Assembly (NCBI GenBank): GCA_017441825.1
Contig: JAFRVD010000014.1
Span: forward strand, 1 to 36,061
Direction: 5' to 3'
Source of the DNA: Lachnospiraceae bacterium
Lineage (GTDB): Bacteria > Bacillota > Clostridia > Lachnospirales > Lachnospiraceae
DNA length: 36,061 nt
Made by a program: the position numbers and the translations under genes
The notes under the pieces: model-generated
Told to the model about the DNA's origin: nothing
Database searches by the model: none
The model's input: only the letters and a program-made list of their open reading frames with translations
Shown here: piece by piece, positions 6,162 through 28,836 of the stretch
Layout: each line of letters starts with the position of its first letter
Position numbering within the stretch: position 1 is the stretch's first letter

Positions 6162-7625
6162 ATGGAAAAGTTTGAAGCCAGTTTTGAGTCCCTCAGGACC
6201 CATACCTATCCTGAATGGTTTAAGGACGCGAAGTTCGGGATCTGGAGCCACTGGGGACCGCAGAGCGTGCCGATGTACGGCGACTGGTACGCGCGGAACA
6301 TGTACATCCAGGGATCGCCGCAGTATCTGTATCACGTAAGACACTACGGGCATCCGTCCAGGTTCGGGTTTAAGGACATCTGCGCCTTATGGAAGGCGGA
6401 GAACTTTGATCCGGAGGCTCTCATGGAGCGCTATGTGAAGGCCGGTGCGAAGTATTTTGTGGCGCAGGCCATGCATCACGATCATTTCTACAACTACGAT
6501 TCCGACATCAACCCCATGAACAGCGTGAAGGTCGGCCCGCATAAGGACATCGTCGCGCTGTGGAAGGCGGCGGCGGAGAAGCACGGCCTGCCCTTCGGCC
6601 TTACAGAGCATCTGGGCGCGTCCTATTCCTGGTGGCGCGTGAACAAGGGCTGTGATTCGGAAGGCCCGTACAAGGGCGTACCGTACGACGGGAACGATCC
6701 TGCTTACCGGGACTACTACTATGACAATTTCGAGCTGGGCACCGGTCAGGAGATCAGCCCCTGGTACACGGCGAACGAGAAGTTCCACAAGTACTGGAAG
6801 GACTCGATGGTCGAGATCATAGACAAATACGAGCCGCTTTTCCTGTACTCGGACGGATCGCTTCCGTTCGTCGACCAGTGGCTCGAAGACGACCTGCCTT
6901 ATGTGCTGGACGGACGGTACAAGGAAGGCCTGGAGGTCGCGGCGTACCTCTACAACAAATCCATTGAGAAGCATGGGGAAAACCTTGCGGTGTACACCCA
7001 GAAGTGCCGCTACAAGGACGTGTACCGGATCGGCGTGCTGGACATGGAATGCAGCGTATTGGAAGGCGCGGCGGAGTTCCCGTGGCAGACGGATACGTCC
7101 ATCGGCGACTGGTTCTATAACGTGAGAAGCAGCTATAAGAGCACGCGCGAGATCATCGACACGCTGGTGGATATCGTTTCAAAGAACGGCAACCTTCTGC
7201 TGAATATCGTGCAGAAGCCGGACGGGACGATCGATGAAGAGGCGGAGTATATCCTGGACGAGCTTGGCGCGTGGTTTGGCGTCTGCGGCGAGGCGATCTA
7301 CGGCACGCGGCCGTGGAAGACCGCCATGGAAGGGCCGACGCGCTTAAGCAACGCGACCTACGCGTCCCAGGCCGGGATCCCGTGGACGGAAGCCGATTTC
7401 CGCTTTACCCGGAAGGACAATACCGTGTACGCGTTCCTGATGGCGCCGAAACCGGGACAGGCAGCGGTCCTTCGGAGCTTCAATGAAGGCGAGAAGATCA
7501 GCGCAGTCAGGCTTCTTGGCGTGGGCCCTGTGCCCTTCGCGCACCAGTTCGGCGTCCTGACCGTGAAGCTCCCGGAAACGCTTCCGACCGGGTATGAGAA
7601 CGCACTGGCAATTGAGCTCGGATGA
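6162..7625 (+). CDS. GH29 alpha-L-fucosidase-like glycoside hydrolase
   Basis: A 487-residue protein with the GH29 TIM-barrel layout and no signal peptide, so it should act in the cytoplasm on imported oligosaccharides. Family landmarks are the N-terminal FGIWSHWG (H30), the MHHDHF segment (H105, H106) that corresponds to KHHDGF in classical alpha-L-fucosidases, and LFLYSDG with candidate nucleophile D231. SKNGNLLLNI in the barrel's last part is also a strong GH29 signature. The KHHDGF motif is changed: Met replaces Lys and His replaces Gly. The sugar specificity is therefore less certain than the fold. AAAGGAG precedes the ATG. No own promoter was seen, so it may be read from the upstream flavoprotein promoter. 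Confidence 0.82.
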   Translation: MEKFEASFESLRTHTYPEWFKDAKFGIWSHWGPQSVPMYGDWYARNMYIQGSPQYLYHVRHYGHPSRFGFKDICALWKAENFDPEALMERYVKAGAKYFVAQAMHHDHFYNYDSDINPMNSVKVGPHKDIVALWKAAAEKHGLPFGLTEHLGASYSWWRVNKGCDSEGPYKGVPYDGNDPAYRDYYYDNFELGTGQEISPWYTANEKFHKYWKDSMVEIIDKYEPLFLYSDGSLPFVDQWLEDDLPYVLDGRYKEGLEVAAYLYNKSIEKHGENLAVYTQKCRYKDVYRIGVLDMECSVLEGAAEFPWQTDTSIGDWFYNVRSSYKSTREIIDTLVDIVSKNGNLLLNIVQKPDGTIDEEAEYILDELGAWFGVCGEAIYGTRPWKTAMEGPTRLSNATYASQAGIPWTEADFRFTRKDNTVYAFLMAPKPGQAAVLRSFNEGEKISAVRLLGVGPVPFAHQFGVLTVKLPETLPTGYENALAIELG

Positions 7626-16226: not shown

Positions 16227-17681
16227 ATGAAAAAAAATATCACTAATCAAGTCATGCTGATCACGTATTCCGACAGCATCGGCAGTAACCTGAAGGAGCT
16301 TTATGAAGTCCTGACCCGGAATTTTAAAGGGGCAATCGGCGGGATCCATATCCTGCCGTTCTTCCCTTCGTCCGGGGACCGGGGCTTTGCCCCCATCACA
16401 TATGACGTGGTGGATCCGGCCTTTGGGGACTGGGACGACATCACGAAATTCTCCGAGGAATACTACCTCATGTGCGACTACATGATCAACCACATGTCCG
16501 CACAGAGCGAGATCTATCAGGACTACCTGAAAAACCACAACGATTCCAGATATAAGGACTTTTTTATCAAGTGGAACGAATTCTGGGACGGGGAGCCGTC
16601 CGAGGAGGATTTCCAGAAGCTGTATCTCAGAAAGCAGACCCCTTACGTCAACGCTGAATTCGCCGATGGGACTACGGAAAAGGTCTGGTCTACGTTCAGC
16701 AATGAACAGATCGACATCGACTGTCTGCATTCTGAAGAGGCGAAAAAGTACCTGTACGAGCAGCTGAAGAAGCTGGCCGGGCGCGGGATGGCGCTGATCC
16801 GTACTGACGCGATGGCCTATGCCGCAAAGCGGAAGGGTGAAAACTGCTTCTTTGTGGAACCGGAAATGTGGACACTCGTCGACCAGTGCAGAGACGCGCT
16901 CCGGGGTACCGGCGTGGAGATCCTTCCCGAGATCCATGAGAACTACTTCTATCAGAAGAAGCTGGAGGAGCAGGGCGTCTGGACGTACGATTTCCAGCTG
17001 CCGTTCCTGATTCTGAACGCAGTGCATTTCGGCAGGACGATGTACCTGAAAAACTGGCTTAAGATCTGTCCGAGGAAGCAGTTTACCACACTTGATACGC
17101 ACGACGGGATCGGTGTGGTGGACGCCCGGTACCTGATGCCTGATGAGGAAGTGCTGGAGACCAAGCGCGCCGTGTTTGACGCGAATCCGGATATCAACGA
17201 AATCTACAAGGACCGCCAGATGCGTGTGAACTTCAGCAAGTTCGACACCTATCAGATCGCATGTACATACTATGACGCACTGGGCAGCGAGGACGACCGG
17301 TATCTGATCGCCCGTGCGGTTCAGTTCTTCGCACCGGGTATTCCGATGGTCTACTATGTGGGCCTGTTTGCCGGCAGGAATGATTTCGATTTCTATCATC
17401 AGTCCAAGCAGGGCCGTGACATTAACAGACATTACTATACGCTTCCGGAGATCGAGGAGGAGATGAAACGCCCTGTGGTGCAGAAGATGTACCGCCTCAT
17501 GTGCTTCCGGAACAGCCACGAAGCTTTCAACGGCGAATTCCGGCTGCTCACGTCTGATGAGCATTCGCTTCATATCCGCTGGGAGAAAGGCGCAGCGTAT
17601 GCGGAGCTTTTTGTGGATTTCGAAAAGCTCACATATGATATCCGGTATACGGAAGACGGAAAAGTGAAGAGGTTTGAATAA
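16227..17681 (+). CDS. gtfA: Sucrose phosphorylase (GH13_18, GtfA type)
   Basis: A 484-residue cytoplasmic enzyme converting sucrose and phosphate to glucose 1-phosphate and fructose. It strongly resembles streptococcal GtfA as I recall it: FFVEPEMW, LPEIHENY, KQFTTLDTHDGIGVVD, APGIPMVYYVGLFAG and GRDINRHYY. Active-site residues are nucleophile D194 (RTDAMAY), acid/base E235 (LPEIHE) and D293 (DTHDG). These are within three positions of D192/E232/D290 of the Bifidobacterium adolescentis enzyme. Length is normal. It lies 42 bases after the LacI gene and ends in a terminator, closing the sugar operon. Other GH13_18 activities (sucrose-6-phosphate or glucosylglycerate phosphorylase) are possible alternatives. 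Confidence 0.9.
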   Translation: MKKNITNQVMLITYSDSIGSNLKELYEVLTRNFKGAIGGIHILPFFPSSGDRGFAPITYDVVDPAFGDWDDITKFSEEYYLMCDYMINHMSAQSEIYQDYLKNHNDSRYKDFFIKWNEFWDGEPSEEDFQKLYLRKQTPYVNAEFADGTTEKVWSTFSNEQIDIDCLHSEEAKKYLYEQLKKLAGRGMALIRTDAMAYAAKRKGENCFFVEPEMWTLVDQCRDALRGTGVEILPEIHENYFYQKKLEEQGVWTYDFQLPFLILNAVHFGRTMYLKNWLKICPRKQFTTLDTHDGIGVVDARYLMPDEEVLETKRAVFDANPDINEIYKDRQMRVNFSKFDTYQIACTYYDALGSEDDRYLIARAVQFFAPGIPMVYYVGLFAGRNDFDFYHQSKQGRDINRHYYTLPEIEEEMKRPVVQKMYRLMCFRNSHEAFNGEFRLLTSDEHSLHIRWEKGAAYAELFVDFEKLTYDIRYTEDGKVKRFE

Positions 17682-17688
17682 ACTGTGG

Positions 17689-17721
17689 AGGGCCGCCGTG
17701 CTATAGCACGGCGGCCCTTTG
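17689..17721 (+). terminator. Terminator-like hairpin after sucrose phosphorylase
   Basis: A perfect 13-bp GC-rich stem AGGGCCGCCGTGC/GCACGGCGGCCCT (17689-17701 with 17706-17718) and a four-base loop. Only three T follow, so termination may be incomplete. Confidence 0.75.
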
Positions 17722-17729
17722 AAAAACCC

Positions 17730-17758
17730 TTGAAACATACAGTCCGATATGGTATAAA
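17730..17758 (+). promoter_or_regulatory. Promoter of the metal-chelate transporter operon
   Basis: TTGAAA (17730-17735), a 17-bp spacer and TATAAA (17753-17758). The predicted start near 17765 gives a long leader of about 260 nt before the first start codon. Confidence 0.8.
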
Positions 17759-17764
17759 CATAGA

Positions 17765-18005
17765 GGAAAAACCGAAGTTTTTCAGAATGCGCCGTAGCGC
17801 ATGGGGAATGAAGATTCCCGGTTGTTTTTAAGGTGTTATCAGGCCGGTGTTTTCCGGCCATGTAATTTTGTCAGGGCACAGATTTTTCTGTCCCTCGCCA
17901 TATACGATTACAGTAGGTCATGAAGGCGTACGACTCCCCTAAGGGGAAGAAGGACGCTTTCTTTTTTTACGCAATAAGGCCGGGTAAGACAGCGGCCCTT
18001 TTCTG
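17765..18005 (+). ncRNA. Hairpin-rich 5' leader RNA, candidate riboswitch or attenuator
   Basis: The non-coding stretch before the FecCD permease gene folds into a chain of perfect hairpins. H1: GAAAAAC-CGAA-GTTTTTC (17766-17783). H2: ATGCGC-CGTA-GCGCAT (17787-17802). H3: GGGAAT-GAAG-ATTCCC (17804-17819). H4: GGCCGG-TGTTTT-CCGGCC (17842-17859). H5: AGGG-C-ACAG/CTGTCCCT (17873-17895). CGCC/GGCG (17896-17899 with 17925-17928) encloses an unpaired 25-nt segment. GGCG overlaps GCGT (17926-17929), which is needed for the terminator stem, so the two pairings exclude each other. GGCCGG recurs at 17978-17983 and could pair with 17854-17859. I see no B12 box, Moco signature or other riboswitch core that I recognise. 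Confidence 0.6.
17926..17968 (+). terminator. Leader terminator (switchable)
   Basis: The outer stem GCGT/ACGC (17926-17929 with 17954-17957) and inner stem TCCCC-TAA-GGGGA (17935-17947) are followed by TTTCTTTTTTT. A second weaker hairpin GGCCG/CGGCC (17978-17982 with 17993-17997) with CTTTTCT lies between it and the start codon. Both precede the gene they would silence, which is the layout of transcription attenuation. Confidence 0.75.
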
Positions 18006-18023
18006 ATCATTAAAGAGAGCGTT

Positions 18024-19079
18024 ATGCAGAGTCTGATTCAAAACAGGAAAAAACAGAAAACCGTCATCGCTCTTTTATGCGCTGCGGTGGTCCTGCTCGC
18101 GTTCGCGGGCCTGTTCATCGGGTCCTCGCACATGACGCTTCGGGACTGCGTAAACGCCCTCCTGAAGAAGGGGAGTGCATCGCAGGTGCGGATCATCTGG
18201 AACATCCGCATCCCGCGCGTACTGGCAGCGGTGATCGCCGGGGCGGGACTGTCCATCGCCGGACTGATCATGCAGACGAACCTGAATAACCCGATGGCGT
18301 CTCCATCCACTTTGGGCGTTTCCAACGCGGCGGTTTTCGGCGCGAATCTGTCGATCATTGCCTTTGCGGGCGGCTTCTTAAGCACCGGCAACAACCTGAA
18401 CAGCTACATGGTCGGCGCGAATCCGTATGCGACGTCGCTCATGGCGTTTATCTTTTCCACACTGTCCATCCTGCTGATCCTGGGCCTCTGCCGGCTTCGG
18501 GCGTTTCAGCCCGGCGTGGTGGTGCTTGCCGGCATCGCCATCGGCTCTGTCTGGACGGCAGCCACCACCATCCTGCAGTTCTACGCCACGGACGTGGGCC
18601 TTTCCGCCGCGGTCATCTGGACCTTCGGCGACCTCGGCCGCGCGACGTATCGGACAGACCTCCTGATGGCCCTTGTGGTGCTGGCGGGCTTCGTGTTCTT
18701 CCTTATTATGAGCTGGAAGTTCAACGCCCTTCTTTCCGGCGACGTCTCCGCGAAAAGCATGGGCGTAAACGTGGACCTGCTGCGGTTCGCGTCGATGCTC
18801 GCGGCGTCCGTCATCACGGCCGTCTGCGTGTCCTTCCTCGGGATCATCGGCTTTGTGGGGATCATCTGCCCGCACGTGACCAAGCGGCTCTTAGGTCAGG
18901 ACCACCGCGTCTCGATCCCGGCCTCCGCCCTCACGGGCAGCATCCTGCTGCTCCTTGCGGACACGCTTTCCCGAAGCCTGGGCAACGGCTCCGCACTTCC
19001 GGTGGGCGCCATCACGTCGCTTTTAGGCGCGCCGTTCTTCCTTTCGATCATTTTCCGGAGAAAGGAGGGCCGCGTCTGA
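18024..19079 (+). CDS. FecCD-family ABC transporter permease
   Basis: A 351-residue inner-membrane permease of the BtuC/FhuB/FecCD type, expected to have about ten helices. Signatures are [46 protein letters not shown] near the N terminus and [25 protein letters not shown] in the coupling region (shown here by key parts FVGIICPH and R-x-L-G-x-DHR). It imports a chelated metal (siderophore, heme) or corrinoid as a homodimer. It is the first gene of a four-gene operon; its TGA overlaps the ATPase start by one base (TGATG). The start is preceded by a weak AAAGAGAG site. Confidence 0.92.
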
Positions 19080-19846
19080 TGCTTACGATCAAAGACGTAT
19101 ACTTCAGATATTCCAGCCGTGCGCCTATGGTCCTCCAGGGCGTCGATTTAACGCTTGAGAATGGCGAAATTGGCGTGCTGCTCGGCAAAAACGGCTCCGG
19201 AAAAACCACCCTGTTCAAGACGATCCTCGGCACTGAAACGCCGGACCGCGGGGAGATGCAGTTTGACGGCGAAAACCTCCTTCGTATGAACCGGCGGGAG
19301 AGGGCGAAACGAATCGCCTACGTGCCTCAAAACATCCAGTTCGGTGCGCTCTCCGTTTACGACACGGTGCTGATGGGCCGCATTTCCTACTTCGGCTACC
19401 GGGCCGGGAAGGAAGACGAGGCTGCAGTGGAGCAGATCCTTAAGGACATGCAGCTCCTCGACTTTGCCGCGCGCAACGTGGAAGAGCTGTCTGGCGGCGA
19501 GCGGCAGAAGATCGCGATCGCGAGAGCCCTCGCACAGGAGCCGCGGATGCTGGTTTTTGACGAGCCGACCGGGAACCTGGACATCGCGAACGAACAGCTG
19601 ATCCTTTCGGAAGCCCGGCGTGTGGCGCGGGAGAAGGGGATCGGGATCCTGACCTCGCTGCATGATTTCAACCAGGCGCTTGAGCTCGGCGACCGGTTCT
19701 TCTTCATGAAGGACGGGAAGATCTGCCGCACGGGCGGGGCGGAGATCGTCACCGAGGAAGTGATCCGCGAGGTGTTCGACGCCGAGGTCCGTATTATACA
19801 AATTGAAGACAAAAAAGTCATCATAAATGGAGGAGAAAACAAATGA
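19079..19846 (+). CDS. FecCD-system ABC ATPase
   Basis: A 255-residue ATP-binding subunit of the iron-complex/cobalamin importer type. Walker A is GKNGSGKT (36-43), the Q-loop is YVPQ (81-84), the ABC signature is LSGGE (137-141) and Walker B is MLVFDE (157-162), followed by the D-loop GNLD and switch His (SLHD). It works with the preceding permease. The end overlaps the binding-protein start as ATGA (19843-19846), so all three subunits are translationally coupled. Confidence 0.93.
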
Positions 19847-21069
19847 AAAGAAACAAAGTGTTGGCACTGCTGCTTGCGGCATTGATGCTGTTCACCCTGT
19901 GCAGCTGCATTTCGGTCGACATTTCCACCCCGGAAGAGGCTCAGGAGCAGGAGCAGGAAGAGGAAGCGGCCGTTCCTGCGGAAGAAGAGTCTGAGGAAGC
20001 TGCTGCGGAGATCACCATCACGGATATGATCGGCCGTGAAGTGACGGTCACGCCGGGAAGCTATACCCGCGTGGTGTGCATCGGCGCAGGCGCGCTTCGG
20101 ATGTACAGCTACATCGGCGACGTGAGCCTGCTGTGCGGCGTGGAGGACATCGACAACACGTCGCTTGAAGAGCGGCCGAAGATGTTCGATTCCGTTGCCC
20201 GCCCCTACATGCTGGCGTACGGCGAATCATTTAAGACGCTCCCGTCCTGCGGCGTGGGCGGCCCGCAGGCACAGACGGCCGAGGCAGAGAAGATCCTTTC
20301 CTGCGAGCCGGACATCGTCATTTCGGAATACGAGGATGTGGAAAAGGAAGACGCACTTCAGGAGCAGCTGGGCGTACCGGTCATCACGCTGAAGGCCGGC
20401 CCGGGCGGCGTCTTTGACGAAAACTTCTATGCGACGATGGAGATGCTGGGCGTGATCTTTGAGAACGAAGAGAAGGCGGCAGCGCTTGTCGAGTTCATCA
20501 AGACGGAGCGTGCGGAGATCGAAAGCCGGACGGCTGACGTTGCCGACGAAGACAAGCCGGCAGTCTACATCTGCGGCCTGGGCAACTGGGGAACCACGAA
20601 CCACCTGATGACTGCGCAGAACTACATTTCCTTCACCGTCGCGAACGTGAAGAACGTGGTGACGGACCTTGCTGCGCCGGGCATCCAGGCGATCGAAGAA
20701 GAAAAGTTCACCTCGCTTGGCGAGGACATGGATATCATCATCATGGACGCGGCGGCGGTCAAGAATATCAAGCCGCTGTACGCCGAAGACCCGACGATGT
20801 TCGACACCTGCAAGGCATGGCAGGACGGCGAGGTCTATCTGGAGATGGCCTACAACGCGTACTACACCAACTATGAGACCGCGCTGATCAACACCTGGTT
20901 CATCGCGAAGACCGTCTATCCGGACCTCTTCGAGGACATCGACATGGACGAAAAGACCAATGAAGTGACGCAGGTCTTCTTCGGCATGGACCTTGCGGAC
21001 CAGATCTCCGCCGCACCGTCAAGCTTCGGCGGCTACCAGAAGATCGACACAGCCACGTTTTTTGAGTAA
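19843..21069 (+). CDS. Metal-chelate/corrinoid-type solute-binding lipoprotein
   Basis: A 408-residue binding protein of the BtuF/FepB-like (class III) family, lipid-anchored: the lipobox LCSC puts the acylated Cys at residue 22, followed by an acidic Glu/Ala tether. The domain starts [15 protein letters not shown], a standard opening of this family. It continues with [16 protein letters not shown] and [11 protein letters not shown]. The central [17 protein letters not shown] and the long C-terminal lobe make it larger than BtuF. The ligand is not readable from sequence: chelated iron, another metal complex or a corrinoid are all possible. A strong GGAGG site within the end of the ATPase gene drives it. 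Confidence 0.88.
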
Positions 21070-21118: not shown

Positions 21119-21703
21119 ATGATCAACACAAGTGAAGTCATTGAATTTTTCGACCGTCTGGCGCCCGGCTGGGACGCGGAGATGATCCGGAACGACGAAG
21201 TGATCGGCCTCATTTTGGACAACGCCGGCGTGACTGCCGGGAAGGACGTTCTGGACGTCGCGACCGGCACCGGCGTCCTGATCCCGGACTATCTGAAGCG
21301 TAACGTCGCGTCTGTGACCGGCATCGATATTTCTCCCAGAATGGCGGAGATCGCGCAGGAGAAGTTCCGGGAGACCGGGGCGGTGATCCTCTGCGGCGAC
21401 GTGGAGGAGACGGACTTCGGCCGGCAGTTCGACTGCGTGGTCGTCTACAACGCCTTCCCGCATTTCCCGGACCCGGAGCGGCTTATTTCAAGGCTTGCTT
21501 TGTTCCTTGCCCCGGGCGGGACGCTCACCGTCGCGCACGGCATGAGCCGCGAAAAGATCAACGCCCACCATCACGGCGCGGCGATGCACGTCTCGAACGG
21601 TCTGATGCCTGCGGAGGAGCTCGCGGAGATCTTCGGGAAATATCTCGAGGTGACCACGGTGGTATCGGACGAGAGGATGTATCAGGTGGTCGGGAGAAGG
21701 TAA
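21119..21703 (+). CDS. Class I SAM-dependent methyltransferase, His-rich
   Basis: A 194-residue Rossmann-fold methyltransferase. Motif I is VLDVATGTGVLIP (44-56), the acidic adenosine-binding turn is GIDIS (68-72), and motif IV-like VVVYNAFPHF is near 107-116. Unusually, five His residues fall between 140 and 157 (H140, H150-H152, H157: AHGMSREKIN then AHHHGAAMH), which could bind a metal. It follows the metal-chelate transporter by 49 bases and ends at a terminator, so it is probably in that operon. It may modify or release the imported ligand (inference). The immediate upstream sequence is only weakly Shine-Dalgarno-like. Confidence 0.83.
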   Translation: MINTSEVIEFFDRLAPGWDAEMIRNDEVIGLILDNAGVTAGKDVLDVATGTGVLIPDYLKRNVASVTGIDISPRMAEIAQEKFRETGAVILCGDVEETDFGRQFDCVVVYNAFPHFPDPERLISRLALFLAPGGTLTVAHGMSREKINAHHHGAAMHVSNGLMPAEELAEIFGKYLEVTTVVSDERMYQVVGRR

Positions 21704-21736: not shown

Positions 21737-21862
21737 ATCCACCTCATCAGTCAGCCCTCCGGGCTGACAGCTTCCCCTGGAAGGGGAAGCCTTTTTTTAT
21801 AGCCTTCCCCCACCGGGGAAAGCCTTTTCTGCACAGCCTTCCCCCGCCGGGGGAAGGTGGAT
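21737..21862. repeat. MITE-like compound palindromic element
   Basis: A 126-base element bounded by inverted ATCCACCT (21737-21744) and AGGTGGAT (21855-21862). Inside are GTCAGCCC-TCC-GGGCTGAC (21750-21768), GCTTCCCC-TGGAA-GGGGAAGC (21770-21790) and two further CCTTCCCC/GGGGAA(GG) hairpins. AGCCTTCCCC occurs twice in its right half. The first 52 bases recur almost unchanged inside the next gene (22815-22866). With the terminator and promoter region it fills the 300-base gap 21704-22003; 21863-21900 contains two GCAGCCGGATGA-like repeats. Confidence 0.85.
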
Positions 21863-21946
21863 GCCGCAGGCAGCCGGATGAGGGGCAGCCGGATGACGGG
21901 TGTTCTTTGCTCAAAAATAATGCTTTTCCGATTCCAATATCTTCAG

Positions 21947-21952
21947 TATAAT
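21947..21952 (+). promoter_or_regulatory. Candidate -10 box of the AmmeMemoRadiSam operon
   Basis: TATAAT 51 bases before the start codon. The -35 region is weak (TTTTCC at 21924-21929, spacer 17). This is the only promoter-like site I see for the eight-gene run that follows. Confidence 0.5.
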
Positions 21953-22003
21953 GATGCTATCAGGGTCGCAGAGGACCCGCAGAACACAGAAGGGAGGTCC
22001 ATC

Positions 22004-23443
22004 ATGCCTATCTTAGCGGCTTTCATGGTGCCCCACCCGCCGATGATCATTCCTGACGTTGGGAAGGGGAGCGAGAAGCAGATCACAAAGACGATCCGGG
22101 CGTACGAGCAGGTGGCTGATGAGGTCGCGGCGCTTGCGCCGGAGACCATCGTCATCACGAGCCCGCATTCGATGATGTATGCGGATTATTTCCACATCTC
22201 GCCCGGGAAGCATGCGAACGGCTCGTTCAGGCAATTTATGGCGCCTCAGGTGAAGTTCTCCGAAGACTATGACGAGGAGCTCGCCGGGCGGATCTCTGTA
22301 CTTTCGGACCGCGAGGAGTTCCCCGCCGGCACCCTGGGAGAGCGGGACGCCTCTTTAGACCACGGCACGATGGTCCCTCTCTGGTTCATCCGGAAAAAGT
22401 ATACCGGCGGGAAGATCCTCAGGATCGGCTTGTCGGGCCTGCCGCTCACGGAGCATTACCGGCTCGGGCAGCTCGTCGCCGATGCCGCGGAAGACCTTGA
22501 ACGGCGCGTGGTGATCATCGCGAGCGGGGACCTTTCACATAAGCTTCAGACCTACGGACCGTACGGCTATGCCCCGGAAGGACCGGAATACGACCGGCGG
22601 ATCATGGACGTCTGCGGCCGCGCGGCCTTTGGCGAGCTGTTTGACTTTGACGAAGTCTTCTGCGAGAAGGCGGCGGAGTGCGGCCACCGGTCTTTTGTGA
22701 TCATGGCCGGTGCGTTTGACGGCCGTGAAGTGAAGGCACAGGTTCTGTCTCACGAGGACGTGACAGGGGTGGGGTACGGGATTTGTACGTTCTATCCGGA
22801 AGGGGATGCGGGTGACCTCATCAGTCAGCCCTCCGGGCTGACAGCCTCCCCTGGGAGGGGAAGCCTGGACAGGCGGTTTTTGGATATTTATCAGGAGAAA
22901 GTGGAACGCGAGTGCAGGGAGAAGGCGGAGCAGTCAGACGCTTACGTACGGCTAGCCAGGGCGTCCGTGGAGTCGTGGGTGGCCCGGAGGAAAAAGCTGG
23001 ACGTCCCGGAAGGGCTGCCCGAGGAAATGCTCCGGCGCCGCGCCGGCACCTTCGTTTCGATCCATAAGGACGGACACCTCCGAGGGTGCATCGGCACCAT
23101 TATGGCCACACAGAAAAATATTGCGGAGGAGATCATCCGGAACGGCATAAGCGCCTGCGCGAATGATCCGCGGTTTTCGCCCATTACACCGGACGAGCTT
23201 CTTCGGCTTGAGATCACCGTCGACGTCCTCGGGGAGATCGAGGACATCACGTCGCCTGCGGAGCTTGACGTGAAGCGCTACGGCGTGATCGTATCGAGCG
23301 GCCGGAAGCGGGGGCTTCTGCTACCGAACCTGGACGGCGTGGATACCGTAGAGGACCAGATCCGGATCGCCCGGGAAAAGGGCGGGATCCGGGAAAGAGA
23401 AAAGTACGAGCTGCAGCGGTTTGAAGTGGTGCGGCATTACTGA
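22004..23443 (+). CDS. AmmeMemoRadiSam protein B-A fusion (Memo/LigB + AMMECR1)
   Basis: A 479-residue two-domain protein. Residues 1-265 form a Memo/LigB-like domain related to class III extradiol dioxygenases (MVPHPPMIIP, ITSPHS, LDHGTMVPL, IIASGDLSH, with conserved His at those places). Residues about 300-479 are AMMECR1 (GTFVSIHKDGHLRGCIGTI signature). The reaction is unknown; the family is defined by its association with the radical SAM enzyme encoded 16 bases downstream. The linker at residues 271-288 is encoded by a palindromic repeat found also upstream of the gene, an in-frame insertion. ATG 22004 follows AGGGAGG; longer in-frame starts run back through the repeat and promoter. The fused B-A arrangement itself occurs in other Bacillota as far as I recall. 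Confidence 0.9.
   Translation: MPILAAFMVPHPPMIIPDVGKGSEKQITKTIRAYEQVADEVAALAPETIVITSPHSMMYADYFHISPGKHANGSFRQFMAPQVKFSEDYDEELAGRISVLSDREEFPAGTLGERDASLDHGTMVPLWFIRKKYTGGKILRIGLSGLPLTEHYRLGQLVADAAEDLERRVVIIASGDLSHKLQTYGPYGYAPEGPEYDRRIMDVCGRAAFGELFDFDEVFCEKAAECGHRSFVIMAGAFDGREVKAQVLSHEDVTGVGYGICTFYPEGDAGDLISQPSGLTASPGRGSLDRRFLDIYQEKVERECREKAEQSDAYVRLARASVESWVARRKKLDVPEGLPEEMLRRRAGTFVSIHKDGHLRGCIGTIMATQKNIAEEIIRNGISACANDPRFSPITPDELLRLEITVDVLGEIEDITSPAELDVKRYGVIVSSGRKRGLLLPNLDGVDTVEDQIRIAREKGGIREREKYELQRFEVVRHY
22815..22866 (+). repeat. Palindromic repeat inserted in frame in the fusion gene
   Basis: 52 bases matching 21741-21792 at 50 positions; the differences are T to C and A to G. It keeps the GTCAGCCC/GGGCTGAC hairpin. 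In the reading frame it encodes the linker DLISQPSGLTASPGRGSL between the Memo-like and AMMECR1 domains, without a stop or frameshift. Confidence 0.9.
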
Positions 23444-23459: not shown

Positions 23460-24308
23460 ATGGCAGTTTGCGAAGTCTGTTTCAGGCATTGCCATATTGA
23501 AGAGGGGCGGCTGGGCTTCTGCGGCGCAAGGACCGCGGAAAACGGCCGGGTGGTGCCGTACCACTACGGCAGGATCTCCGGGTTGGCACTCGACCCTATA
23601 GAAAAGAAGCCCCTTGCGCGGTTCTGCCCGGGGAGCATGATCCTCTCCGTGGGCGGCTTCGGCTGCAACCTCCGATGTCCCTTCTGCCAAAACGATGACA
23701 TATCCTGGTCGGCGGAAGCTTCGCGGTACGCGGAGCGGGCGGAGCAGGTGAGCCCGGAGGCGCTCGCGGACCTCGCGGAAAGGATGCGGGGGCGGGGGAA
23801 CATCGGCGTGGCGTTCACGTATAACGAGCCGCTTATAAGCTTCGAATTCGTACGGGACACCGCGAAGCTTGTGAAGGAACGAGGCATGAAGAACGTGCTG
23901 GTCACGAACGGGACCGCGGAGCTGCCGGTGCTTCGGGAACTGGGGCGGTACATCGACGCAATGAACATTGACCTCAAGGGTTTTACGGACCGGTATTACA
24001 GCAAAGTGCTGCAGGGAGACCGCGGGCAGGTGCTCGCGTTCATCGAAGAGGCTGTGAAGACGAGTCATGTAGAGCTGACGACGCTGATCGTTCCCGGGGA
24101 GAACGATTCCGAGGAGGAGATGCGGGCGCTTTCTTCCTGGGTCTCAAAGCTCCGGAATCCGGACGGAGAGAGCGTGCCGCTTCACGTTTCCAGGTTCTTC
24201 CCGCGGTTCCATATGACAGACCGGCCGGCGACCCCGGTCCGCAAGGTCTACCGCCTGGCGGAGGTAGCGCGGGAAGTGCTGCCGTACGTCTATACCGGGA
24301 ATTGCTGA
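23460..24308 (+). CDS. AmmeMemoRadiSam-system radical SAM enzyme
   Basis: A 282-residue radical SAM protein related to pyruvate-formate-lyase activase. An N-terminal four-Cys motif (CEVCFRHC, then GFCGAR) precedes the radical SAM motif C-x3-C-x2-C in GCNLRCPFCQN. FTYNEPLISFEF and MNIDLKGF are family motifs of SAM and strand binding. It works with the preceding Memo-AMMECR1 fusion in an uncharacterised modification. The protein stops at YVYTGNC; larger relatives continue with a further segment after YVYxGN, so this one seems C-terminally short (from memory, to be checked). It is coupled to the preceding gene by a 16-base gap. Confidence 0.9.
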   Translation: MAVCEVCFRHCHIEEGRLGFCGARTAENGRVVPYHYGRISGLALDPIEKKPLARFCPGSMILSVGGFGCNLRCPFCQNDDISWSAEASRYAERAEQVSPEALADLAERMRGRGNIGVAFTYNEPLISFEFVRDTAKLVKERGMKNVLVTNGTAELPVLRELGRYIDAMNIDLKGFTDRYYSKVLQGDRGQVLAFIEEAVKTSHVELTTLIVPGENDSEEEMRALSSWVSKLRNPDGESVPLHVSRFFPRFHMTDRPATPVRKVYRLAEVAREVLPYVYTGNC

Positions 24309-27570: not shown

Positions 27571-28836
27571 ATGCTTGAGCTTCCGTACGGAAAGGGCAGT
27601 CTCTTTCTGGATGAGGAAAAAGAACACGCGGCGGTACTCGCGTCCGGGATCGGGCAGCTGAAAAACGCTGAGGACGGGCGGGTACTGGTCCGCGCGGCGA
27701 TGGCTTCGCCCTACGGCGGGGTCCGCCTTTCCGCGCTCGCCCGGAAGGCGTCCGCCTGCGTGATCGTGATCTCCGATCACACCCGCCCGGTTCCGAGCAA
27801 AGACATCCTCCCGGAGATGCTCCGCGAGCTTCGTGAAGGCAATCCCCGGATCGACGTCACGCTCCTCGTGGCCACGGGCTGCCACAGGCTCTCACAGGCA
27901 GCGGAACTTCGGGAAAAGCTCGGCGATGAGATTTTCGAGCGTGAAAAGATCTGCGTGCACGACGCGCAGGACGCAGCGGGGAACGTGGCTATCGGGACCC
28001 TGCCCTCCGGGGCGCCGCTCATCATCGACCGGAGAGCCGTGGAGACGGACCTGCTGATTGCTGAAGGCTTTATCGAGCCGCACTTTTTCGCGGGCTTTTC
28101 CGGCGGACGGAAGAGTGTACTGCCCGGCCTCTGCAGCCGGGAGACGGTTTACGGAAACCACTGCGGCGAATTCATTGCGAGCCCATACGCGCGGACCGGC
28201 ATCCTCGAAAACAACCCGATCCACCGCGACATGTGCGCGGCAGCGGAAATGGCGAAGCTCCGGTACATCGTGAATGTTGTGATCGATGAGGAGCAGAAGA
28301 CCGCGGCGGCCTTTGCCGGCGATCCGTTTCTCGCCCACGAAGCGGGCTGCGCGTTCCTGCGCTCGCATTGCGAGGTCCCGGCGGCGCCTGCGGACATCGT
28401 GGTCACCACGAACGGCGGCGCGCCGCTCGACCAGAACGTCTACCAATGCGTGAAGTGCATGACGGCGGCGGAAGCGTCCGCGAACGAAGGCGGCGTGATC
28501 ATTGTTGCGGCGGAGTGCGCGGACGGGCTCGGAGGAGACGGCTTTTACAAAAGCCTCCGGGACTGCGAAAGTCCGGAGGCGCTGTACCGTGAATATTGTG
28601 AAACACCGCAGGAGAAGACCATTGCGGACCAGTGGCAGAGCCAGATCCTCGCGCGCATTCTGATGCGCCACGAGGTGATCTTTGTGACCCGGCCGGAGCT
28701 CCGTGAAGCCATTACCGAGATGAAGATGACGTACGCGGGTAGCGTTGAGGAGGCGGTTGCGGCTGCGAGAGAAAAGAAGGGTGCGAATGCTTCCATGACA
28801 GTAATCCCGAACGGGGTGTCGGTGATCGTAAGGTGA
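27571..28836 (+). CDS. larA: LarA-family nickel-dependent 2-hydroxyacid racemase/epimerase
   Basis: A 421-residue member of the lactate racemase family, which uses the nickel-pincer nucleotide cofactor. Against Lactiplantibacillus plantarum LarA (H108, H174, K184, H200), this protein has H105 (ATGCHR), H171 (EPHFFAG), K181 (SGGRKSVLPG) and H197 (GNHCGE), all at a constant offset of three. The substrate-binding SDHTRPVP loop lies at 68-75. The catalytic apparatus is therefore complete. LarA homologues act on many 2-hydroxy acids, so lactate is only one option. The cofactor-synthesis genes larB, larC and larE are not in the window. It is the last gene of the run, followed after four bases by a terminator. 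Confidence 0.92.
   Translation: MLELPYGKGSLFLDEEKEHAAVLASGIGQLKNAEDGRVLVRAAMASPYGGVRLSALARKASACVIVISDHTRPVPSKDILPEMLRELREGNPRIDVTLLVATGCHRLSQAAELREKLGDEIFEREKICVHDAQDAAGNVAIGTLPSGAPLIIDRRAVETDLLIAEGFIEPHFFAGFSGGRKSVLPGLCSRETVYGNHCGEFIASPYARTGILENNPIHRDMCAAAEMAKLRYIVNVVIDEEQKTAAAFAGDPFLAHEAGCAFLRSHCEVPAAPADIVVTTNGGAPLDQNVYQCVKCMTAAEASANEGGVIIVAAECADGLGGDGFYKSLRDCESPEALYREYCETPQEKTIADQWQSQILARILMRHEVIFVTRPELREAITEMKMTYAGSVEEAVAAAREKKGANASMTVIPNGVSVIVR

Follow-up and report, generated by a model that had tools for sequence, protein, structure and literature searches.

A leader RNA family with mutually exclusive hairpin and terminator folds upstream of nickel-type genes in Clostridia, and its co-occurrence with DUF3842

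The window, which is the whole stretch of 36,061 nucleotides of the Lachnospiraceae contig JAFRVD010000014.1, shows a noncoding leader at 17765-18010, between a promoter-like site and a FecCD-FecE-SBP-methyltransferase operon. This leader belongs to an RNA family that is absent from Rfam 15, and both the existence of the RNA element and the mutual exclusion of its two alternative folds are close to certain. We consider it rather probable that the leader is a nickel-responsive transcription attenuator, with a protein of the DUF3842 family as its most likely trans-acting regulator. The leader represents a mapped, testable control element before larB, larC, larE, CbiM and several metal-type transporter genes of gut bacteria, and offers an entry point for identifying what orphan ECF and FecBCD transporters carry. 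The features of the leader and of the genes around it, all on the + strand, are the following:

17730..17758, +, sigma-70-like promoter TTGAAA-17 nt-TATAAA, predicted from sequence
17766..17783, +, hairpin P1, GAAAAAC-CGAA-GUUUUUC, with the family loop type C-NGAA-G
17787..17802, +, hairpin P2, AUGCGC-CGUA-GCGCAU, with the variant loop NGUA
17804..17819, +, hairpin GGGAAUGAAGAUUCCC, from sequence
17842..17859, +, hairpin GGCCGG-UGUUUU-CCGGCC, from sequence
17874..17894, +, hairpin GGGCACAGAUUUUUCUGUCCC, from sequence
17913..17931, +, conserved hairpin P3, the putative antiterminator, GUAGGUC-AUGAA-GGCGUAC, with one G.G mismatch
17922..17968, +, intrinsic terminator, stem 17922-17961 and T run 17962-17968, 5' arm common with P3
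17978..18003, +, second terminator-like hairpin, GGCCGGGTAAGACAGCGGCC followed by CTTTTC, from sequence
18024..19079, +, FecCD-type permease, first gene of the operon (Pfam PF01032, 271.8 bits)
19079..19846, +, ABC ATPase (family search)
19843..21069, +, substrate-binding protein (SBP), Peripla_BP_2 (family search)
21119..21703, +, class I SAM methyltransferase, a recurrent partner of the FecCD operon
27571..28836, +, LarA, nickel-dependent lactate racemase (NF033504, 585 bits with a cut-off of 460, and Pfam), with no co-transcription with the leader operon implied

The original prediction had described a clear promoter, five consecutive perfect hairpins, a terminator with a T run, a GGCG (17925-17928) overlapping the GCGT (17926-17929) of the terminator stem, and a GGCCGG repeated at 17842 and 17978, and all these elements are present at these positions. 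The promoter was missed by a promoter scan, whose rule requires the -10 box to have T as its sixth base. Folding of the 261-nt leader gave -97.5 kcal/mol, against -71.3 +/- 4.3 for 200 shuffled sequences (z -6.1, none as low), and the sub-stretch 17765-17970 gave a z of -4.3 against its shuffles. The prediction that the leader matches no known RNA class held: the search of the window against Rfam 15 at gathering score gave nothing except two tRNA matches, the region 17660-18060 at E <= 10 gave unrelated sub-threshold matches only, and none of 20 leader-bearing loci reached the gathering cut-off of any Rfam 15 family, including the cobalamin, NiCo, Moco and guanidine classes, with E-value searches likewise giving sub-threshold matches only. 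Just 5' of the leader promoter, at 17687-17718, there is a long perfect inverted repeat (GGGCCGCCGTGC...) followed by TTT, likely the terminator of the upstream amylase-like gene. The genes for an AmmeMemoRadiSam A/B fusion (21857-23443) and a radical SAM protein (23460-24308) are located downstream of the transporter operon and upstream of the LarA gene.

BLAST of the leader in relatives matched G010 (same genus, same operon) and G055 (other genus, different gene), with per-genome E values of 3e-4 and 5e-5, and both matches cover the terminator. Among 46 FecCD-relative loci from named genomes, two upstream types were found, either a leader RNA or a DNA palindrome, ATCCCCCCGGGGGGCTTG. The RNA type comprises 12 terminator-type loci, including L091 (cut by a contig end) and L094 (atypical), and six start-codon-type loci. 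Two or three small hairpins, with loops of the type C-(N)NGAA-G, make up the family core; the last one, P3, is of the type GUAUACC-AUGAA-GGUAUAY, and the terminator starts with the 3' arm of P3. In 14 leaders, P3 was 93.3% paired and the terminator 94.8% paired. A model, R1, was built from this 14-leader set with the terminator structure only, so that P3 is absent from its structure; its match in the window, one of its own seeds, covers 17913-17962 with 53.8 bits. At E <= 0.01, R1 matched 38 of 397 genomes in the taxonomic family, and at E <= 5e-4, 17 of 341 in the class. From the 43 matches of the family search, 30 loci were inspected and six (L157, L158, L159, L164, L165 and L168) were set aside as plain terminators. 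Two of the 21 class-level matches were already known, and 11 of the 19 new ones (L174-L176 and L180-L187) were set aside as plain terminators; L179, with the hairpin present and tRNA genes downstream, was set aside as ambiguous. By judgement, 31 of the 49 inspected loci (30 plus 19) are real leaders.

Covariation was measured on 42 rows from 41 chosen leaders, 13 of them R1 seeds, the 42nd row being L171, which matched also on the minus strand; this set and the 34-leader set used below contain the matches left after exclusions (L091 and L094 among the excluded), partly chosen for hairpins or gene context. In P3, 93.1% of the cells were paired and 27 carried changes on both sides, and the covariation score was 0.428 (0.313 +/- 0.016 in shuffles); none of 500 shuffles reached its pairing, both-side cells or score. 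Versions of P3 slid along the alignment were at most 57.4% paired. Two of the five measures used for P3 were weaker: the number of pairs with both-side changes was reached by 71 of 500 shuffles, and the number of pair types by 22 of 500. The terminator was 95.4% paired, with 115 cells changed on both sides. Since the 3' arm of P3 is the 5' arm of the terminator, the two folds are mutually exclusive. In all 41 leaders, the stretch with the terminator folds more stably than that with P3 (medians -22.6 kcal/mol for the former and -6.0 for the latter), and therefore termination is the expected default. The covariation of both elements agrees with the predicted structured leader whose terminator is excluded by an alternative fold; the conserved competitor, nevertheless, is P3, and neither the CGCC/GGCG pairing (CGCC lies at 17896-17899 and also at 17790-17793) nor the GGCCGG repeat that had been proposed.

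Upstream of P3, 34 leaders contain 68 C-(N)NGAA-G sites; in 49 of these, pairing continues outward by four more pairs, compared with 37 of 1208 background sites. At least one such hairpin is present in 31 of the 34 leaders and at least two in 18; L147 and L173 show neither P1 nor P2, and L154 shows only one of them. The 49 fully paired sites show NGAA (39) or NNGAA (10) loops inside a C-G pair, the motif being the search term, so that other loops are possible. By comparison with relatives, P1, P2, P3 and the terminator of the window leader are members of this family. The position of P2, which has the NGUA loop in the window, is occupied in the same-genus locus L068 by UGCGC-UGAA-GCGCA. The window hairpins 3 to 5 (17804-17894) showed no conserved counterpart in an unsystematic look among relatives and occupy the spacer, which in most relatives is about 20-60 nt, as estimated from positions; L068, L074 and L163 have long spacers, like the window leader.

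The genes after the 31 leaders are as follows: eight encode MACF (a small membrane protein of lar-type operons, its name coined from its first residues), five NikA-like SBPs, four LarE, four ECF S components, three LarB, three FecCD (window included), and one each LarC, CbiM, another SBP and an apparent insertion element. LarB of L145, LarC of L169, LarE of L178 and L088, and CbiM of L156 score above curated cut-offs, and the leader-associated CbiM carries a PDGLE domain. The NikA-like proteins score below the nickel cut-off of NCBIfam, and two ECF proteins, when searched, match Pfam ECF_trnsprt and no NCBIfam model, so that a nickel specificity of these two groups is putative; the remaining genes were named by eye or by Pfam. 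An upstream NGAA hairpin is present in 28 of the 49 inspected matches, of which 26 precede nickel-type genes, against four of the 21 matches without it. The gene row of L088 is methyltransferase-larE-larB-larC-DUF3842-leader-FecCD-FecE-SBP, and in L124 the MACF gene adjoins larC. A MACF gene was found in 20 of 150 genomes; by eye, the leader precedes it in two of the 20 (G055 and G112), and one MACF operon (L133) shows the ATCCCCCCGGGGGGCTTG type upstream instead of the leader. Leaders before larB, larC, larE, CbiM and metal transporter genes, together with LarA in the window, therefore have nickel as a common theme, and it is highly probable that nickel, rather than a corrinoid, is the theme of the regulon. 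The recurrent position of the leader before nickel cofactor and uptake genes suggests that it controls them.

Several further loci came up in the searches. In L150 (G374), the leader is followed by an apparent insertion, presumably of the IS66 type, where a nickel gene would be expected. L179 (G492:C12) shows a leader-like hairpin and terminator before tRNA genes, apparent by eye, and is possibly a remnant. In G750, a terminator-like repeat, CTGGCGAAAAAGG...CCTTTTTCTGCCAA, occurs in five nearly identical copies, the last T varying (L175, L184, L185, L186 and L187), and G104:C16:59181-59735 contains a tandem array of five copies of GTCATGAAGGCATAC, four of them spaced 106 bases.

A gene encoding DUF3842 (PF12953) is present in 32 of 32 leader-positive and in 6 of 31 leader-negative genomes (Fisher p 3e-12, uncorrected for relatedness), counts which rest on draft genomes and include related species. 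The leader-negative genomes were hand-picked, roughly in handle order, are mostly nearly complete and do not appear among the 38 R1-positive genomes of the family search, for which not every negative genome is listed; G125 and G130 were taken as leader-negatives for having a MACF gene. larC is present in 29 of 32 leader-positive and 23 of 31 leader-negative genomes, and among the larC-positive genomes DUF3842 was found in 29 of 29 with the leader and 5 of 23 without it. The distribution of DUF3842 therefore follows that of the RNA more closely than that of the Lar pathway. One of the six leader-negative genomes with DUF3842, G049, has a leader before larE which was missed by R1; the surroundings of DUF3842 in the other five, and of larC in the four of them with that gene, yielded no leader. 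The DUF3842 gene lies on the same strand and less than 1 kb 5' of the leader in 18 of the 32 genomes, and downstream of these 18 pairs are nickel-type genes of six kinds and a single apparent insertion element. In three genomes, it is within about 2 kb of the leader in another orientation, and in 11, that of the window included, the two are on different contigs. A second set of 40 genomes with a FecCD relative, largely separate (one genome common, G010/G780), shows DUF3842 in 16 of 18 genomes with the RNA, L094 and L091 being counted as leaders, and in 1 of 22 without it; DUF3842 was not found in two leader-bearing draft genomes of this set. G012, of the genus of the window, has the palindrome in place of the leader and no DUF3842 match.

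DUF3842 is predicted to adopt a Rossmann-type nucleotide-binding fold (confident model, pLDDT 94), and an alignment of 42 sequences contains 23 invariant columns, Cys108 among them. A literature search for DUF3842 or PF12953 found no paper naming either, and the leader association gives the family a concrete candidate role. Whether DUF3842 is the RNA-reading partner of the leader seems to us evenly balanced; the Rossmann-type fold, as modelled, is not a known RNA-binding fold, and the protein could instead serve the regulon as an enzyme or a metal chaperone. Binding to the leader RNA, if it occurs, would make it a metal regulator of a new RNA-binding class. More tentatively, and with the balance tipped slightly against it, DUF3842 might be the founding family of Rossmann-fold, nickel- or nucleotide-sensing regulators that bind repeated C-(N)NGAA-G hairpins and whose control of a nickel regulon would extend over two phyla, acting through antitermination in Clostridia and through start-codon uncovering in Spirochaetes.

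In the mechanism proposed for the window leader, the long terminator (17922-17961) would by default prevail over P3 and transcription would stop. A trans-acting regulator, most likely DUF3842, would read the C-(N)NGAA-G loops of P1, P2 and P3, and once bound would keep P3 closed and so prevent the terminator from forming. Nickel would be the signal, its scarcity leading to the production of nickel-chelate uptake and nickel-pincer cofactor proteins. In some Spirochaetes, like hairpins would face a stem burying the apparent start codon.

A riboswitch binding Ni2+, a nickel complex or the nickel-pincer nucleotide directly, with DUF3842 merely a nickel-handling protein of the regulon, is the strongest alternative, although we consider it unlikely. 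The short conserved loops, the exclusive P3 and terminator folds of 41 leaders, the two output modes (terminator and start codon) and the metal-type genes downstream would all suit it, but the conserved sequence seen is limited to the loops of small hairpins, and neither a junction nor an extensive conserved core was observed, and DUF3842 follows the RNA more than the lar genes, often directly 5' of leaders that precede unrelated genes. The pincer cofactor as sole ligand is further opposed by three leader-positive genomes in which larC was not found. The guanidine-II (mini-ykkC) riboswitch also has two like hairpins with identical tetraloops 5' of the expression platform, but its loops are ACGR, whereas the present family has NGAA loops, other genes and no Rfam match. 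The NiCo (czcD) riboswitch, a nickel/cobalt-related attenuator as is proposed for the leader, is a four-way junction before efflux genes, and the leader, which has no Rfam match, shows tandem hairpins before uptake and cofactor genes. The original prediction, of riboswitch or attenuator logic with a metal complex or corrinoid as ligand, is retained for the attenuator and the metal-related regulon; the corrinoid is without support, the recurring genes being larB, larC, larE, CbiM and metal-type ABC and ECF transporters, and the riboswitch is less favoured, as the like loops and the DUF3842 co-occurrence favour a protein partner.

The repeated like loops, the small conserved core and the linked protein gene make the attenuator proposed here, with DUF3842 as regulator, resemble protein-dependent antitermination, and ANTAR systems most of all. 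PMC3369931 describes ANTAR systems as protein-dependent antitermination, with a translational example also proposed, and their target RNAs (eut, nas and ami) likewise as tandem small hairpins with conserved loops 5' of an intrinsic terminator. In the leader family too, a conserved hairpin excludes the terminator, and ANTAR proteins were found in 29 of 32 leader genomes. It is nevertheless very improbable that an ANTAR-domain protein binds these hairpins and that the leader is an ordinary ANTAR target: the leader loops are of 4-5 nt, NGAA, closed by a C-G pair, whereas the targets described in PMC3369931 have hexaloops in which the first base is A and the fourth is G; the regulon is different; and three of the 32 leader genomes (G075, G513 and G725) gave no ANTAR match at E <= 1e-5. 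That the element is a plain terminator of the upstream gene with a chance neighbouring fold is scarcely credible, since, even if R1 also catches ordinary terminators (so judged in 6 of the 30 and 11 of the 19 matches inspected), P3 covaries, the upstream hairpins are tied to nickel-type genes and DUF3842 co-occurs with the leader.

Two protein regulators are known for comparable regulons. LarR of the Lactobacillus plantarum lar operon is a DNA-binding, lactate-sensing regulator and controls lactate racemase and nickel-pincer genes, like those of the leader regulon; we know of no RNA element for the LarR-controlled lar operon. NikR is a DNA-binding repressor, and shares with the leader a nickel transporter regulon, but acts on DNA where the element here is RNA. 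According to PMC2667541, the NikR regulon is that of the nickel transporter, the regulator gene lies beside its target in E. coli, and NikR is found in less than half of the organisms bearing NikABCDE. Among the results listed by literature searches that joined nickel, lar genes and riboswitch, none pointed to an RNA element at these genes; likewise, PMC11109978 (new RNAs), searched for nickel, racemase and DUF, and PMC11796402 (nickel-pincer enzymes), searched for regulation, riboswitch and operon, gave none of these terms.

The start-codon type of the RNA was found before FecCD in six loci titled as Spirochaetes (L092, L093, L098, L100, L102 and L105), which were also the only ones returned when 139 genomes of the order were searched. 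One hairpin is exemplified by CGUCC-AUGAA-GGACG in L102 and the second by GAAAC-AGAA-GUUUC in L098; in addition, a stem of GGGCGCAUCA with UGGUGCGUCC can form over the apparent GUG start. Pairing is 96.7% in both folds, with slight covariation among the six sequences, and DUF3842 is present in five of the six genomes. L095, titled Treponema sp. (Horse_feces306), shows a terminator-type leader of the Clostridia kind, which may reflect transfer or mis-binning.

The palindrome ATCCCCCCGGGGGGCTTG lies immediately 5' of the -10 box in genomes with the same transporter but without the leader RNA. Its occurrences are the following:

Before FecCD: L069-L072, L075, L076, L079, L081, L085, L087, L090, L096, L097, L099 and L107
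Before the MACF gene: L133
Variants, identified by eye: L077, L086, L103 and L116

This palindrome is a probable DNA operator for the same regulon, apparently an alternative to the RNA plus DUF3842, and we take it to resemble a CsoR/RcnR-like operator. L076 and L079 show a second copy of ATCCCCCCGGGGGGCTTG on the minus strand (reverse-complement offset 6171-6172), which lies upstream of the one before FecCD.
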